Source: Planctomycetaceae bacterium (GTDB taxonomy: Bacteria > Planctomycetota > Planctomycetia > Pirellulales > Pirellulaceae). From it: 33,482 nucleotides of DNA. Below, in pieces: positions 1-6,052 of the stretch (position 1 is the stretch's first letter; every line of letters begins with the position of its first letter). Below the pieces are notes generated by a model, which was not told the DNA's origin, searched no databases, and saw only the letters and a program-made list of their open reading frames with translations. The stretch lies in NCBI GenBank assembly GCA_027487375.1, contig JAIYDQ010000219.1, forward strand, positions 1 through 33,482. The letters are read 5' to 3'. The position numbers and the translations under genes are program-made.

Positions 1-3000
1 AACTGAAAGTCCTCCCATGATAGCGATCGCCATCGGCCCCCAAAAGACGCTTCTCGTAAGAGGAATCATCGCGAGGATTGCCGTTGCAGCGGTCAAGATC
101 ACCGGCCTCGCACGACGCACCGCAGATTCAATCACGGCCTCCCATTCTGTCAGTCCGCCTTGCATATCCTGCTCAATCTGATCGATCAAAATCACGGAGT
201 TTCGCATATCCATCCCGGCAAGCGCTATAACACCTAACAATGCGACGAAGCCAAATGGCGCGTTAAAAATAAGCAAAAAGGTAACGGCGCCGATTAACCC
301 CAGTGGAGCAATCCCAAACACAAGAGCCGCTTTCTTAAAGCTTTGAACCTGAAGCATAAGCAGTGTTAACATGATCAGAATCATCACAGGGAAAACGCTA
401 AAGAGAGCAAGGTTCGCTTTCTCACTTTCTTCAACGGCGCCGCCCCGTTCAATTCGGTAACCAGGAGGTAGCTCCAACGCTAGAAGCTTAGGAAAAATTC
501 GATTCGTAACGTCGGGTGCTTGAACACCGTCGATGATGTCGGATCTGACAGTCAGCATTGTCTCTTGATTCCTACGCCACAAAATGGGTGGTTCCAATTC
601 ATAGTGAGCTGTTGCGACTTGGCTAAGAGGAATCGCCTTTCCATCGTTATTGAACAACGATAGGTTCTGAAGCGAGTCCAGCTCTAATCGTTCTTCAGGA
701 ATTGCTCTCGCAACAACCTCGACGGTCTCGGTTCCTTCTCGAAACTGCGCGATAGGTGCCCCGGAGAGCAAGGTTTGAAGCGTTGACGAAATCTCTTGTG
801 TGTTCAAGCCCATGGATCGCGCTCGGTCTTGATCAACAGCCAATCGAATCATCTTCGAAGCCTCGCTCCATTCGAAGTTAACATCAACAGTCGCCTTCTC
901 TTGCCGCATGATTTCTCGAACCTTGTCTCCAATCGCGAGTACTCCTTCACGATCAGGCCCCATCACACGAAACTGAACAGGAAATCCAACCGGCGGACCA
1001 AAATCCAGTCGCAGAACACGCAGCCTTGGTGCAGCGAACTGCGGGTCCGATTCAAAGGCTGCAAGCAGCTCGCGTCTTAACTTCTCACGTGCTTCGACCC
1101 CCGTAGTTTCTATGACAATTTTTGCAAAGCTCGCGTTGGGAAGATCCGGATTCAGCGCAAGAAAAAATCTTGCGGAACCAGCCCCTGTGTAAGAGGTAAA
1201 ATGGTTTACATCCCACTCATAATCATGCGAACGATGGATCAAGAGATCAAGAAATGAAAATGGTTGGTTCTTGTGCTCTCGATCTGTGTCGTCTGGGTGC
1301 GGTAGTTTCTTGACCAACAACGACTCGACTCTTCGGACCATATCGGCTGTCGCCAAAAAGGACGAGCCTTCCGGCATCTTGATATCCACCATCAACTCAG
1401 GTCGTGATGACTGAGGAAAAAACTGCTGCTGCAGTTGTGTAAAGCCGTACATCGATGCGATAAAAGCAACCAAAGTCACCGATACAACCTTCAACGGATT
1501 GCGAACACAAAGCGTGATGATCGAACGCAAGGCTCGGTACATCCCCGTGTTATAATCGTGATGTTCTTTCGATGAAGCAAGCTTTTCTGGAAGCAACATT
1601 ACGCCAAGGTAGGGAGTAAAGACGACAGCAGTAAACCACGAGGTCATCAAAGCGATTCCGACAACCCAGAAAATTCCACCTGCATATTCACCCGCGGCTG
1701 ATTTGGCAAATCCCACTGGGATAAAACCCGCTGCGGTAATCATCGTTCCTGACAACATCGGAAACGCAGTGGATGACCAAGCAAAAGTTGCCGCATCAAC
1801 GCGACTCCAACCTTGCTCCAACTTCACTGCCATCATTTCAACAGCAATGATCGCGTCATCCACTAATAAACCAAGCGCCAGAATCAATGCGCCTAAGCTT
1901 ATCCGATCCAAATCCATACCAATCGAGTTCATGATGACCATGGAGATAGCCAGGACGGTAGGCACACTGAGAGCCACTACGATTCCGGTTCGAAACCCAA
2001 GACTCAGAAAGCTTACGCAAAGAACGATTATCAAAGCCTCGACGAACGATCGCAAGAATTCTGATACAGACTCGTCGACCACCGAAGGCTGAAAGGCGAC
2101 AGTCCCAATTTGGACACCGGCAGGCACTTCGGTTCGAATGATTTGCATCTCCTTTTCAATTCGCTCGCCCAGCGCTAAAACATTCCCGCCTTTTCTCATG
2201 ACGACTCCGAGTCCAACGCTTTGTTTACCGTCAAAACTCATCGTAAACTCCGATGGATCTTCGTACCCTCGTTTGATTTCAGCGATGTCACCCAATTTCA
2301 GTGTTCGGTTCAATCCGCTGACGGGAACATTCGAGATTGCTTCGACCGCGTCGAAGGCTCCATCGACTCGAACAAAGACACGGTCTTGTTCGGTCTCGAT
2401 TTTTCCCGATGGCAATATTGCGTTTTGCGCGGTGACACTGTCAAAGATCTTTTGTGGCGAGATGCCGAGTGTCGCAAGCTTTCGATGAGAAAGTTCGATA
2501 AAAACTTTCTGAGGTTGGTCGCCGATGATGTCAACCTTCTCAATATCATTGACTCGCAACAATCGCTTCCTCGCGGATTCGACAATACGTTTCAATTCCG
2601 CGGGGGTATAATCGTCGCCATGAAATGCGTAGATTGCGGAATAGACGTCACCATATTCATCGTTGACTGACGGACCAAGAACTCCTTGAGGAAGTGTACC
2701 GCGGATATCGTTCAACTTTTTACGAAGCTGGTACCACGTTTCGGGAACTTGCTTTTTGGGAATCGTATCTTTTAGCTGGACGAGAACGAGCATTCGTTCT
2801 GGCAAACAGTAAGTTCTCAGAAAATCGAGATACGGTGTTTCGCGAAGCTTGTCTTCGATTCGCTCTGCAACTTGCCTCTGCACTTCCTCCGCGGTCGCAC
2901 CAGGCCAAGTCGCGGAGACGATCGCCGTTTTAATTGTAAACGATGGGTCTTCAGCCCTCCCCATTTGCAAGTAGGCCTGCAATCCGGCAAGTAACGAAGC

Positions 3001-3075
3001 ACCAATCAAAAACAGTATGAACGACGGATGAGTCACAGCCCATCGCGACAGATTGAAACTAGGAAGGCTTTTCAC
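1..3075 (-). CDS. RND efflux transporter permease (AcrB/HAE1-like), 3' end outside window
   Basis: Minus-strand open frame from a GTG at 3075 (overlapping the TGA of the upstream adaptor gene, AAGTGAAAAG) through position 1 without a stop in the parts I translated. Translation contains RND-like segments such as GLVVDDAIIAVEMM-type and SVPTVLAISMVIMNSIGMDLDRISLGALILALG. Not listed in the ORF track because it runs off the edge. Confidence 0.9.
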   Translation of the reverse strand, partial: MKSLPSFNLSRWAVTHPSFILFLIGASLLAGLQAYLQMGRAEDPSFTIKTAIVSATWPGATAEEVQRQVAERIEDKLRETPYLDFLRTYCLPERMLVLVQLKDTIPKKQVPETWYQLRKKLNDIRGTLPQGVLGPSVNDEYGDVYSAIYAFHGDDYTPAELKRIVESARKRLLRVNDIEKVDIIGDQPQKVFIELSHRKLATLGISPQKIFDSVTAQNAILPSGKIETEQDRVFVRVDGAFDAVEAISNVPVSGLNRTLKLGDIAEIKRGYEDPSEFTMSFDGKQSVGLGVVMRKGGNVLALGERIEKEMQIIRTEVPAGVQIGTVAFQPSVVDESVSEFLRSFVEALIIVLCVSFLSLGFRTGIVVALSVPTVLAISMVIMNSIGMDLDRISLGALILALGLLVDDAIIAVEMMAVKLEQGWSRVDAATFAWSSTAFPMLSGTMITAAGFIPVGFAKSAAGEYAGGIFWVVGIALMTSWFTAVVFTPYLGVMLLPEKLASSKEHHDYNTGMYRALRSIITLCVRNPLKVVSVTLVAFIASMYGFTQLQQQFFPQSSRPELMVDIKMPEGSSFLATADMVRRVESLLVKKLPHPDDTDREHKNQPFSFLDLLIHRSHDYEWDVNHFTSYTGAGSARFFLALNPDLPNASFAKIVIETTGVEAREKLRRELLAAFESDPQFAAPRLRVLRLDFGPPVGFPVQFRVMGPDREGVLAIGDKVREIMRQEKATVDVNFEWSEASKMIRLAVDQDRARSMGLNTQEISSTLQTLLSGAPIAQFREGTETVEVVARAIPEERLELDSLQNLSLFNNDGKAIPLSQVATAHYELEPPILWRRNQETMLTVRSDIIDGVQAPDVTNRIFPKLLALELPPGYRIERGGAVEESEKANLALFSVFPVMILIMLTLLMLQVQSFKKAALVFGIAPLGLIGAVTFLLIFNAPFGFVALLGVIALAGMDMRNSVILIDQIEQDMQGGLTEWEAVIESAVRRARPVILTAATAILAMIPLTRSVFWGPMAIAIMGGLSV

Positions 3076-4292
3076 TTTTGCATCTCCCAAACTCGAACTT
3101 TCATAGCTTCATCGAGCTTTTGAACGCCAGCAGAAACAATGAATTGCCCCGAAGTTAACCCGCTCGATATTTCGGACATGCTAGCCCCGTACGATTTGAC
3201 TGTGACCGTCTGAGGACGAATCGAAAATACGCCGGTATTCAACGGATCCGGACTAGCTAACCATACGGCCGATTTATTTCCGTGCTGAATGATTGCTGCC
3301 GATGGGATACTCATCGCATCTTTGTTGAAACCATCGCTGGTTGCGGGTTGCGGTGTACCGAATGTTTCGCTTACGTTGTCGTCCCAGCTGACTGTTGAAG
3401 TCATTCCAAGTTGGATCTCTGCTGGTGGTCGTTCGATAGAGAAGCGAGCGCGATAAGTGCGAGTTACCGGATCTGCGACAGGCGATAGCTCTCGAAGCTT
3501 TGCCGTAGTTCGCACATTTGGAAGCGACCAGAATTGGACTGAAGCAATCAAGTTATCAGGAAGCGAACTTCGATTCTCTGGGATGTCAACGACTGCCTCG
3601 AGTTGTTCGGTTTGGGCAATCACGCAAACAGGCGTTCCTGCCGCCACGACCTGTCCCGATTCTGCTTGTACGCTTATCACGATCCCAGTAGTGTCTGCCA
3701 CGAGTTGGCAGTAGGCTAGCTGGTTGTTGGCAAGTTGCAGTTGTCGCTCCGCACTTGTCTGTTGACCTAACGCGATATCTCTTGCCGATAAACCGAGATC
3801 GTACTCCGATTGACTAATTGCATTGCTTCGTCGTAAGTCAGCCAGTCGTTGCTCCTCGGCGGTACTTTGCCTGACTGCAGCCCTCGCGACGACAAGGTTT
3901 GCTTCGGAAGTCTTTTGTTGTAGCCGATAATCCTCAGCATCCAATTCAAACAAAATGTCGCCCGACTTTACCTTTTGACCTACCTCAATTTTTCGACTCA
4001 CAATTTTACCGCCAACCCGAAATCCAACGGGCGTTTCGTATCGAGCGCGGACGGTCCCGGTAAAGACGTTCTTGGTACATCGTGCTTCAACACTTCCAAC
4101 CTCAAACATTCGTACCGGTACAATGGGAAGCACAATCTTGTTGGTCGACTTCGAAGCTTCTGGCAAATGTGCGTTTGACGACGATTGCAACCCTTGATTC
4201 TTCAAACCCACCGCCGCGAGGACGGCGGCAGATACGGAAAACAAAACCGCTGCGGACATGACGATGACCCGTTTTTTAAAGATGCTTTTCAT
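3072..4292 (-). CDS. RND efflux periplasmic adaptor subunit (membrane fusion protein, HlyD/AcrA-like)
   Basis: 406 aa; N-terminal membrane anchor, GTVRARYETPVGFRVGGKIVSRKIEVGQKVKSGDILFELD biotinyl-lipoyl-like motif, coiled-coil hairpin, translationally coupled to the RND permease. Confidence 0.92.
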   Translation of the reverse strand: MKSIFKKRVIVMSAAVLFSVSAAVLAAVGLKNQGLQSSSNAHLPEASKSTNKIVLPIVPVRMFEVGSVEARCTKNVFTGTVRARYETPVGFRVGGKIVSRKIEVGQKVKSGDILFELDAEDYRLQQKTSEANLVVARAAVRQSTAEEQRLADLRRSNAISQSEYDLGLSARDIALGQQTSAERQLQLANNQLAYCQLVADTTGIVISVQAESGQVVAAGTPVCVIAQTEQLEAVVDIPENRSSLPDNLIASVQFWSLPNVRTTAKLRELSPVADPVTRTYRARFSIERPPAEIQLGMTSTVSWDDNVSETFGTPQPATSDGFNKDAMSIPSAAIIQHGNKSAVWLASPDPLNTGVFSIRPQTVTVKSYGASMSEISSGLTSGQFIVSAGVQKLDEAMKVRVWEMQK

Positions 4293-4324
4293 CGGCGTAA
4301 TACCTTTTGAAGAATTGAATGAGC

Positions 4325-4347
4325 CGTCAGCTAATGACGAAGCGTCA
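4325..4347. promoter_or_regulatory. putative TetR operator (copy 1), CGTCA-N5-TGACG-N3-CGTCA
   Basis: CGTCAGCTAATGACGAAGCGTCA, 33 bp upstream of the adaptor start codon; includes the 17-bp inverted repeat AATGACGAAGCGTCATT (4333-4349). Same geometry and orientation as the site at 5116-5138. Confidence 0.7.
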
Positions 4348-4367
4348 TTTTTTCAGCAAAAAAATTT

Positions 4368-5114
4368 CTAGTTGGTTGTTGTTAGTAAATTGGTTTCGTT
4401 CAAGTTGAACTCGGTCCGAATCGCTTGGTGGAATTGGTCCATCTTTTGGAATTGCTCCTCGACTCCAAGCAGAGGTTGCCAACCGAATCCGTTCATCAAC
4501 GTATAACAGTGGTGACGAATCGCCTTGGGAGCATCAGTTATCCCAAGCTTGGCGAGAGAAGGGCTGGTTGCGGCAAGGACTTGGCTACCGTAATTCAATG
4601 CCCAAAATCCGAAGATGATTTCTTCGGGGGAAAGACCGTCGCGAAGAGCTAAGTCTCCGGCCATCATCGCATCTCGGACGATCCCCGAAACAACCCCCAT
4701 ACACCGACTTTCGCATTGTTGAATCAACTCTTGTCGGCGAGGACTTGATTTGTCCCAAATTGTGCTGTTTCGAATCCATTCTTCTATCGCAAAATGGTCT
4801 GTGCAGGCTTGCGTGTAAACCTCGCAGGCCGCACCGATCCCCATAAGTCGCTCTCTCGGAATATGACTCAATTGCGAACCAAACTGGAATAGCCGAAATC
4901 GCAACTCCATCGACTCAATGGCCAGGGCAATTACGATTTCCTCTTTGTTCGGGAAATGGTTGTAGAGAGTCCCCTTGGCATACTCCATCAAGGACGCCAA
5001 GCGGTCCATGCTGAGTGCCTGATACCCCTCTCGCAGCAAAATGGGACGGGCAAGCCTTAGGATTTGCCCCTCTCGCTCAGCGATCTCTCTTTGTTTTCTG
5101 CTTAAAACGACCAT
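4368..5114 (-). CDS. TetR/AcrR family transcriptional regulator
   Basis: 248 aa; N-terminal HTH typical of TetR: ILRLARPILLREGYQALSMDRLASLMEYAKGTLYNHFPNKEEIVIALA; sits directly upstream of the efflux genes. Confidence 0.92.
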   Translation of the reverse strand: MVVLSRKQREIAEREGQILRLARPILLREGYQALSMDRLASLMEYAKGTLYNHFPNKEEIVIALAIESMELRFRLFQFGSQLSHIPRERLMGIGAACEVYTQACTDHFAIEEWIRNSTIWDKSSPRRQELIQQCESRCMGVVSGIVRDAMMAGDLALRDGLSPEEIIFGFWALNYGSQVLAATSPSLAKLGITDAPKAIRHHCYTLMNGFGWQPLLGVEEQFQKMDQFHQAIRTEFNLNETNLLTTTN

Positions 5115-5115
5115 G

Positions 5116-5138
5116 CGTCAATTATTGACGCTTCGTCA
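5116..5138. promoter_or_regulatory. putative TetR operator (copy 2), CGTCA-N5-TGACG-N3-CGTCA
   Basis: CGTCAATTATTGACGCTTCGTCA immediately upstream of the tetR ATG; includes 17-bp inverted repeat GCGTCAATTATTGACGC (5115-5131) and TGACGCTTCGTCA (5126-5138). Confidence 0.7.
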
Positions 5139-5155
5139 CAAAAAGTCAAGTGACT

Positions 5156-6052
5156 TTAGCGATATCTGAAAATGCAGTAGATCGCGTTCCAAAGATCCTT
5201 CAGGCCGATCTTTTTTCCTTCGCTCCAAGAACGAGCTCGGTAACTTATAGGTACTTCTGGGATTTGAATTCCAAGCCGCGAGATTTTTGCGGTGATTTCT
5301 GGCTCAAACCCGAATCGAGGCTGCTCAATTCGAATATTTTGCAAGACATCACGGCGGAAGGCTTTGTAGCAGGTCTCCATGTCTGTCAGTTTTTGCCCGG
5401 TTACCCAGTTGCTAAGCCCGGTAAGGCTAGCATTACCGAAACGATGAATCCAAGAGCTGTTTTCGGACTCCGAATTCAAGTACCGTGATCCGTAAACGAC
5501 CGTGGCTCGACCATCGATAATCGGCTGGATGACTTTCATGATGTCTTGAGGATCATACTCGAGGTCAGCATCTTGAATAATGACGATGTTCCCCTCGGTA
5601 AGGCGGAAGCCGGTCTGAAGAGCAGCACCTTTGCCTTGATTTACGCAGTGAAAAAAGAGTTCGACACATCCGTCTTGCGGGATGCTAAGAAGTGCTTCCT
5701 GCGTGCCATCAGTGCTCCCATCATCGACAATCACGATCTGTTTGCTCACCGGGAGACGCTTCACGGCTTCAACTATCTTAATGACCGATTCACGTTCGTT
5801 AAAAACGGGAATCACTACGGAAAGCATCGGACGAGTGATTCGAAGCCGATCGTTTCCTAGATTATCGTCGACTGCCTTCTGGACCTCGGACAATTCGTCA
5901 AAAACACGCAATTCAACGCCCGACTCGAGACCGTAGCTGGACTGCATTTCAGCAATCCACTCACGCTCGTATGTTTGAGTCGACATTGGGAGTTGTGTCG
6001 TGGACGAATCGTTGTTCATGGGGCGACGTTGCTTACAAAGAGCATCAGACAA
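5156..6052 (-). CDS. glycosyltransferase family 2 (dolichyl-phosphate mannosyltransferase-like)
   Basis: 298 aa; LSVVIPVFNERESVIKIVEAVKRLP, IVDDGSTDGTQE, IIQDADLEYDPQD, VVYGSRYL. Start could instead be 6019. Confidence 0.9.
   Translation of the reverse strand: MSDALCKQRRPMNNDSSTTQLPMSTQTYEREWIAEMQSSYGLESGVELRVFDELSEVQKAVDDNLGNDRLRITRPMLSVVIPVFNERESVIKIVEAVKRLPVSKQIVIVDDGSTDGTQEALLSIPQDGCVELFFHCVNQGKGAALQTGFRLTEGNIVIIQDADLEYDPQDIMKVIQPIIDGRATVVYGSRYLNSESENSSWIHRFGNASLTGLSNWVTGQKLTDMETCYKAFRRDVLQNIRIEQPRFGFEPEITAKISRLGIQIPEVPISYRARSWSEGKKIGLKDLWNAIYCIFRYR

Follow-up and report, generated by a model that had tools for sequence, protein, structure and literature searches.

The window, as we call the whole stretch of 33,482 nucleotides that was analysed, corresponds to contig C302 of a genome of 5.46 Mb that is split into 529 contigs, and it carries three co-oriented genes on the minus strand that link a regulator to efflux functions. 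These are tetR (4368-5114), encoding a TetR-family repressor of 248 aa (Pfam TetR_N, E=5.9e-11), the gene of a 406-aa RND periplasmic adaptor, or membrane fusion protein (3072-4292; TIGR01730, E=3.6e-58, and HlyD_D23), and the gene of an RND permease (1-3090), which extends past the contig end and matches RND permease models (best E=1.5e-114) with scores below their curated cut-offs, the protein being incomplete. The N-terminal helix-turn-helix (HTH) of TetR was confirmed with PF00440 (42.4 bits, cut-off 24), and the matches obtained in sequence searches with this protein lay mainly over the HTH part. The synteny of the tetR, adaptor and RND genes is kept at the ortholog loci. In the closest relative (L037, 11289-12744) the genes that follow the RND permease are, by eye, NUDIX-type hydrolase-like and peroxiredoxin-like, and an outer-membrane factor gene was not seen in the stretch examined.

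Two 23-bp sites accompany these genes. Along the operon, on the minus strand, both read TGACG-N3-CGTCA-N5-TGACG, which is a 13-bp palindromic core with a third half-site on its downstream side. Site A (5116-5138) comprises the core TGACGAAGCGTCA at 5138-5126, the N5 spacer ATAAT and the third half-site TGACG at 5120-5116, and a single base separates its end from the tetR ATG (5114-5112). Site B (4325-4347), located between tetR and the adaptor gene, comprises the core TGACGCTTCGTCA at 4347-4335, the N5 spacer TTAGC and the third half-site TGACG at 4329-4325. An earlier note on this DNA had reported the pattern, written as CGTCA-N5-TGACG-N3-CGTCA, as occurring twice in the same orientation with one copy abutting the tetR start, and both 23-mers proved exact at these positions. 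Because AAG, the N3 spacer of one core, is the reverse complement of CTT in the other, the 13-bp cores of A and B (4335-4347 and 5126-5138) are one sequence inverted; since this relation between the spacers is absent in the relatives, we take it as probably due to chance.

When up to three mismatches were allowed, the pattern matched six times in the window against 1.25 expected, a number that 0 of 100 shuffles reached, and the four non-exact matches all overlap sites A or B. In the whole 5.46 Mb genome the exact 23-bp pattern occurs at A and B only, with 0 matches for the reversed control. The 13-bp core by itself, TGACGNNNCGTCA, is present at four genomic places, compared with seven per strand for the control pattern. 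Its two extra copies lie inside unrelated ORFs, by eye those of a membrane protein (HlyD/peptidase-like, L033:1501) and of a GntR-type regulator (L036:1501). A wider regulon in the same genome was rejected, as these two further core matches are at chance level.

A loose threshold gave TetR matches in 35 of 60 relatives, and TetR orthologs (E<=1e-20) were present in 106 of the 398 genomes of the class as well as in named planctomycete genomes, the closest named relatives of the protein being Planctomycetota and Pirellulaceae MAGs. After removal of obvious duplicates the ortholog set comprised 95 loci, all analysed in tetR orientation. A core with at most one mismatch, called as the best match within a region of fixed size, lies no more than 150 bp upstream of tetR at 72 of these loci (site A). 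At 54 loci such a core lies near the tetR-adaptor junction, at most about 200 bp from the tetR stop (site B), and the other 41 gave no clear B core in this search. The counts are not independent, since the loci have a common ancestry and were picked by their resemblance to this TetR. The mismatch thresholds and regions were set after a first look at the loci, with control regions of comparable size scored by the same rule: the core was found in 0/95 and 0/95 inside tetR, in 2/94 and 0/94 far upstream and in 0/92 downstream, and shuffled upstream regions gave 0.38 core matches per set. The third half-site, TGACG at +5 (at least 4 of 5 positions), is present at 81% of the B and 46% of the A sites, far above nearly all other offsets. 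A chance match of the 23-bp pattern was thus rejected, given the shuffles, the uniqueness in the genome and the comparison of ortholog with control regions. The genome-wide and ortholog search that the earlier note had suggested as a check gave the opposite of the outcome that the note had named as refuting its reading: A and B are alone in the genome and are conserved at orthologous tetR/efflux loci, and this supports its proposal of a TetR operator, still a predicted one, with autoregulation.

Site A overlaps a predicted sigma-70-type promoter of tetR (5121-5149, minus strand) with the -35 hexamer TTGACT at 5149-5144, a spacer of 17 nt that contains the operator core, and the -10 hexamer AATAAT at 5126-5121. 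This is the sole sigma-70-like match in 4200-5250, and since about one is expected by chance from shuffles, the weight of the predicted promoter rests on conservation: in 47 of the 72 ortholog A sites the core lies between both hexamers (at least 4/6), and AATAAT stands out in the column frequencies of the A sites. With the -10 ending at 5121, the usual start distance places the predicted transcription start at about 5114, the A of the tetR ATG, and the core starts 24-25 nt before the tetR start codon in 38 of the 72 A sites. The tetR mRNA is therefore probably leaderless, and a conserved inverted repeat inside the predicted promoter of a regulator is what would be expected of an autoregulated operon, in which TetR would probably occlude its own promoter.

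The residues of the recognition helix vary together with the half-sites, which is the most direct indication in the sequences of which protein binds. In one clade of eight TetR proteins the half-sites are GGACG at all loci and all eight proteins have Gly46 and Arg52; neither residue occurs in any of the other 86 TetR proteins, and GGACG half-sites are confined to the eight. TGACA half-sites accompany 8 of 9 proteins with Arg47 compared with 7 of 85 without it (p=5e-7, uncorrected for the scan over columns and residues). On a tree built without the helix-turn-helix columns the Arg52/GGACG change is a single event, and the Arg47/TGACA change arose two or more times (three on the best tree). A tree-based independent-pairs sign test of helix residue against half-site gave the same direction with p=0.5, on too few events to reach significance. 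With so few independent events the correlation is suggestive rather than proof, and as such it points to this TetR as the likely binder of the sites.

Site B has features of its own. A run of seven T followed by G (4358-4364, minus strand) starts 17 nt before core B, and in 50 of 70 B sites a T-run (T6-8) begins 15-20 nt ahead of the core, the distance being exactly 17 in 27 of them. In the window there is no hairpin before this run (hairpin energy 0, no terminator match), and a terminator hairpin at this place was rejected. Among 48 ortholog T-runs near the tetR stop, 14 follow a hairpin with z < -1.5 (mean z over the 48, -0.66), so that a terminator is plausible in some species but not in the window. 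A G+C hairpin ahead of the T-run was observed in L005, L045, L143 and L153. Site B also lies inside the open adaptor frame in 48 of 70 orthologs, about two thirds, 40 of which have an in-frame ATG shortly upstream, preceded in 28 by a Shine-Dalgarno-like motif. In L106-L112, L115, L116, L120, L122, L124, L129 and others, site B codes for residues at the adaptor N-terminus, a peptide resembling SFFAKKMTTRQKMTR, and where B is coding the adaptor ATG often overlaps the 3' end of tetR.

Dozens of relatives share both the sequence and the placement of the sites, which makes it almost certain that these are the regulator's own binding sites, and we give a probability of roughly 85% to the reading that both are operators of the TetR encoded between them, with autorepression at A. 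At site A, a TetR dimer positioned between the -35 and the -10 of the tetR promoter would block RNA polymerase, probably together with a second dimer aided by the third half-site. The same promoter probably starts a tetR-adaptor-RND transcript, from the leaderless end of which tetR would be read. At site B, the same TetR would repress the efflux genes at a second level, and an inducer, presumably a substrate of the pump, would free TetR from both sites. The arrangement is a familiar one and its unusual details are those of the second site. Judging by its position, the likeliest role of B, which we put forward tentatively and at somewhat less than even odds, is that of a roadblock beside the T-run that stops elongating polymerase, with a local promoter perhaps being blocked instead in some lineages. 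A more specific version is doubtful: polymerase coming from the tetR promoter and stalled by the bound TetR would have its active site close to the T-run, 10-17 nt upstream, and tetR would be transcribed but the efflux genes only after the inducer has acted. If such a repressor-gated elongation block operates, site B would be, in most planctomycete orthologs, operator and adaptor coding sequence at once.

The main rival to a roadblock is that B serves as the operator of a separate sigma-70 promoter of the efflux genes, with the -35 (TTG) supplied by the end of the T-run and the -10 by the A+T-rich N5. The T-run and the TTG do stand at a near-fixed distance from core B, both hexamers reach at least 4/6 in 17 of 54 B sites, in the window the adaptor ATG comes 33 nt after the site, and the hairpins seen before the T-run in some orthologs could end the tetR transcript. 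There is, however, no promoter match at B in the window and no -10-like peak comparable to that at A (mean best 2.6 versus 3.4 of 6), and where B is inside the adaptor frame with the start codon upstream, a transcript that started just after B would lose that codon. We consider a separate promoter rather unlikely. The earlier note had claimed separate control of the efflux genes, which implies such a promoter: its link of the sites to these genes holds up, and the promoter is less secure, as none was found in the window and B falls within the adaptor frame in most orthologs. Less likely again is a repression loop of about 790 bp in which TetR joins A and B. The two sites are conserved together, at distances of 770-942 bp (median 787, 42 loci), but the distance simply tracks the length of tetR and shows no helical phasing at periods of 10, 10.5 or 11 (Rayleigh p 0.4-0.8), although phasing counts less at such length; we regard looping as improbable.

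Two further explanations would take one or both sites away from this regulator. Site B could have been kept for the adaptor N-terminus that it encodes (a peptide resembling FFxxK[LM]TxRQxxTxR) instead of for protein binding, as the frame is open and the peptide conserved in many orthologs. Yet the DNA pattern is the same in the window, L004, L041, L042 and L065, where the adaptor frame over the site has stops, and in coding B sites the codon choice is near fixed (ACG in 40 of 49, CGT in 41 of 49), which together place the constraint on the DNA; moreover, site A has this motif too, in front of tetR. A purely coding explanation was rejected on the grounds of these stops and codons, and we give it hardly any credence. 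That the sites arose by chance or are targets of a different regulator is just as improbable: a match to a consensus is by itself no proof, but these sites are conserved with this TetR family, are absent elsewhere in the genome and number 0-2 in the control regions, and their half-sites change with the recognition helix.

As regards the mode of binding, the earlier note had read each site as two overlapping palindromes sharing the central TGACG, which two overlapping dimers might occupy. In the overlapping palindrome, CGTCA-N5-TGACG, the half-sites have a polarity opposite to that of the core. A symmetric dimer would hence read the two palindromes differently, and tandem dimers would be the simpler reading. 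Tandem dimers of the same polarity, 18 bp apart, would fit at least as well as overlapping ones, and the comparison of orthologs lends this some support. At +13 of the B sites, where a fourth half-site CGTCA would lie, the first two bases are C in 72% and G in 85%, an enrichment that may partly be coding constraint because this stretch is in the adaptor frame in most orthologs. Eight B sites have an adaptor frame that opens only after the third half-site begins; in this small sample the third half-site is kept and position 27 is G in 7 of 8. At site A, a pair of core-like palindromes spaced by 17-18 bp occurs in several orthologs (e.g. L008, L011, L058, L059 and L062). With its conserved third half-site, the 23-bp site falls within the range known for operators of two dimers (22-32 bp).

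In AcrR/AcrAB and TtgR/TtgABC a TetR-family repressor gene adjoins an RND efflux operon, and a palindromic operator overlaps the promoter. By comparison with this general knowledge the locus described here is similar, with the regulator beside adaptor and RND genes and an operator over a promoter, and autoregulation would be expected. Unlike in those systems, the planctomycete tetR is not divergent but co-oriented with the efflux genes as the first gene of the operon, a second predicted operator lies between tetR and the adaptor gene, the half-site is TGACG and the lineage is planctomycete. According to PMC4150764, QacR, CprB, CgmR and Ms6564 bind as two dimers to operators of 22-32 bp. The site here is comparable in size, its three half-sites spanning 23 bp and a degenerate fourth, if included, extending it to 31 bp, but it has three recognisable half-sites in place of one long palindrome. 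QacR was among the PDB sequence matches of our TetR through the HTH only, with no similarity detected outside it in this search. MAB_4384, the regulator of MmpS5/MmpL5 efflux in Mycobacterium abscessus, is likewise a TetR of an RND-type pump and is described in PMC5895659 as placing two dimers on a 27-bp operator; that operator differs, being made up of two degenerate inverted repeats of 13 nt and lying between divergent genes.

The titles and abstracts found on planctomycete TetR/RND operators, leaderless planctomycete transcripts and roadblocks formed by repressors at terminators apparently do not describe this arrangement, and at that level of the literature no operator of such a kind was found for the Planctomycetota. 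For a TetR/efflux regulator that is widespread in this phylum there is now a predicted operator with good support, together with a predicted promoter and half-sites that correlate with the recognition helix. The second site, beside a T-run and often in coding sequence, raises the question of whether TetR may control elongation as well as initiation in one operon. A locus on a contig titled as a Gammaproteobacteria MAG (L063) encodes a TetR with 33% identity and has a perfect core with a TTGACA -35-like hexamer upstream, reflecting either transfer or mis-binning.
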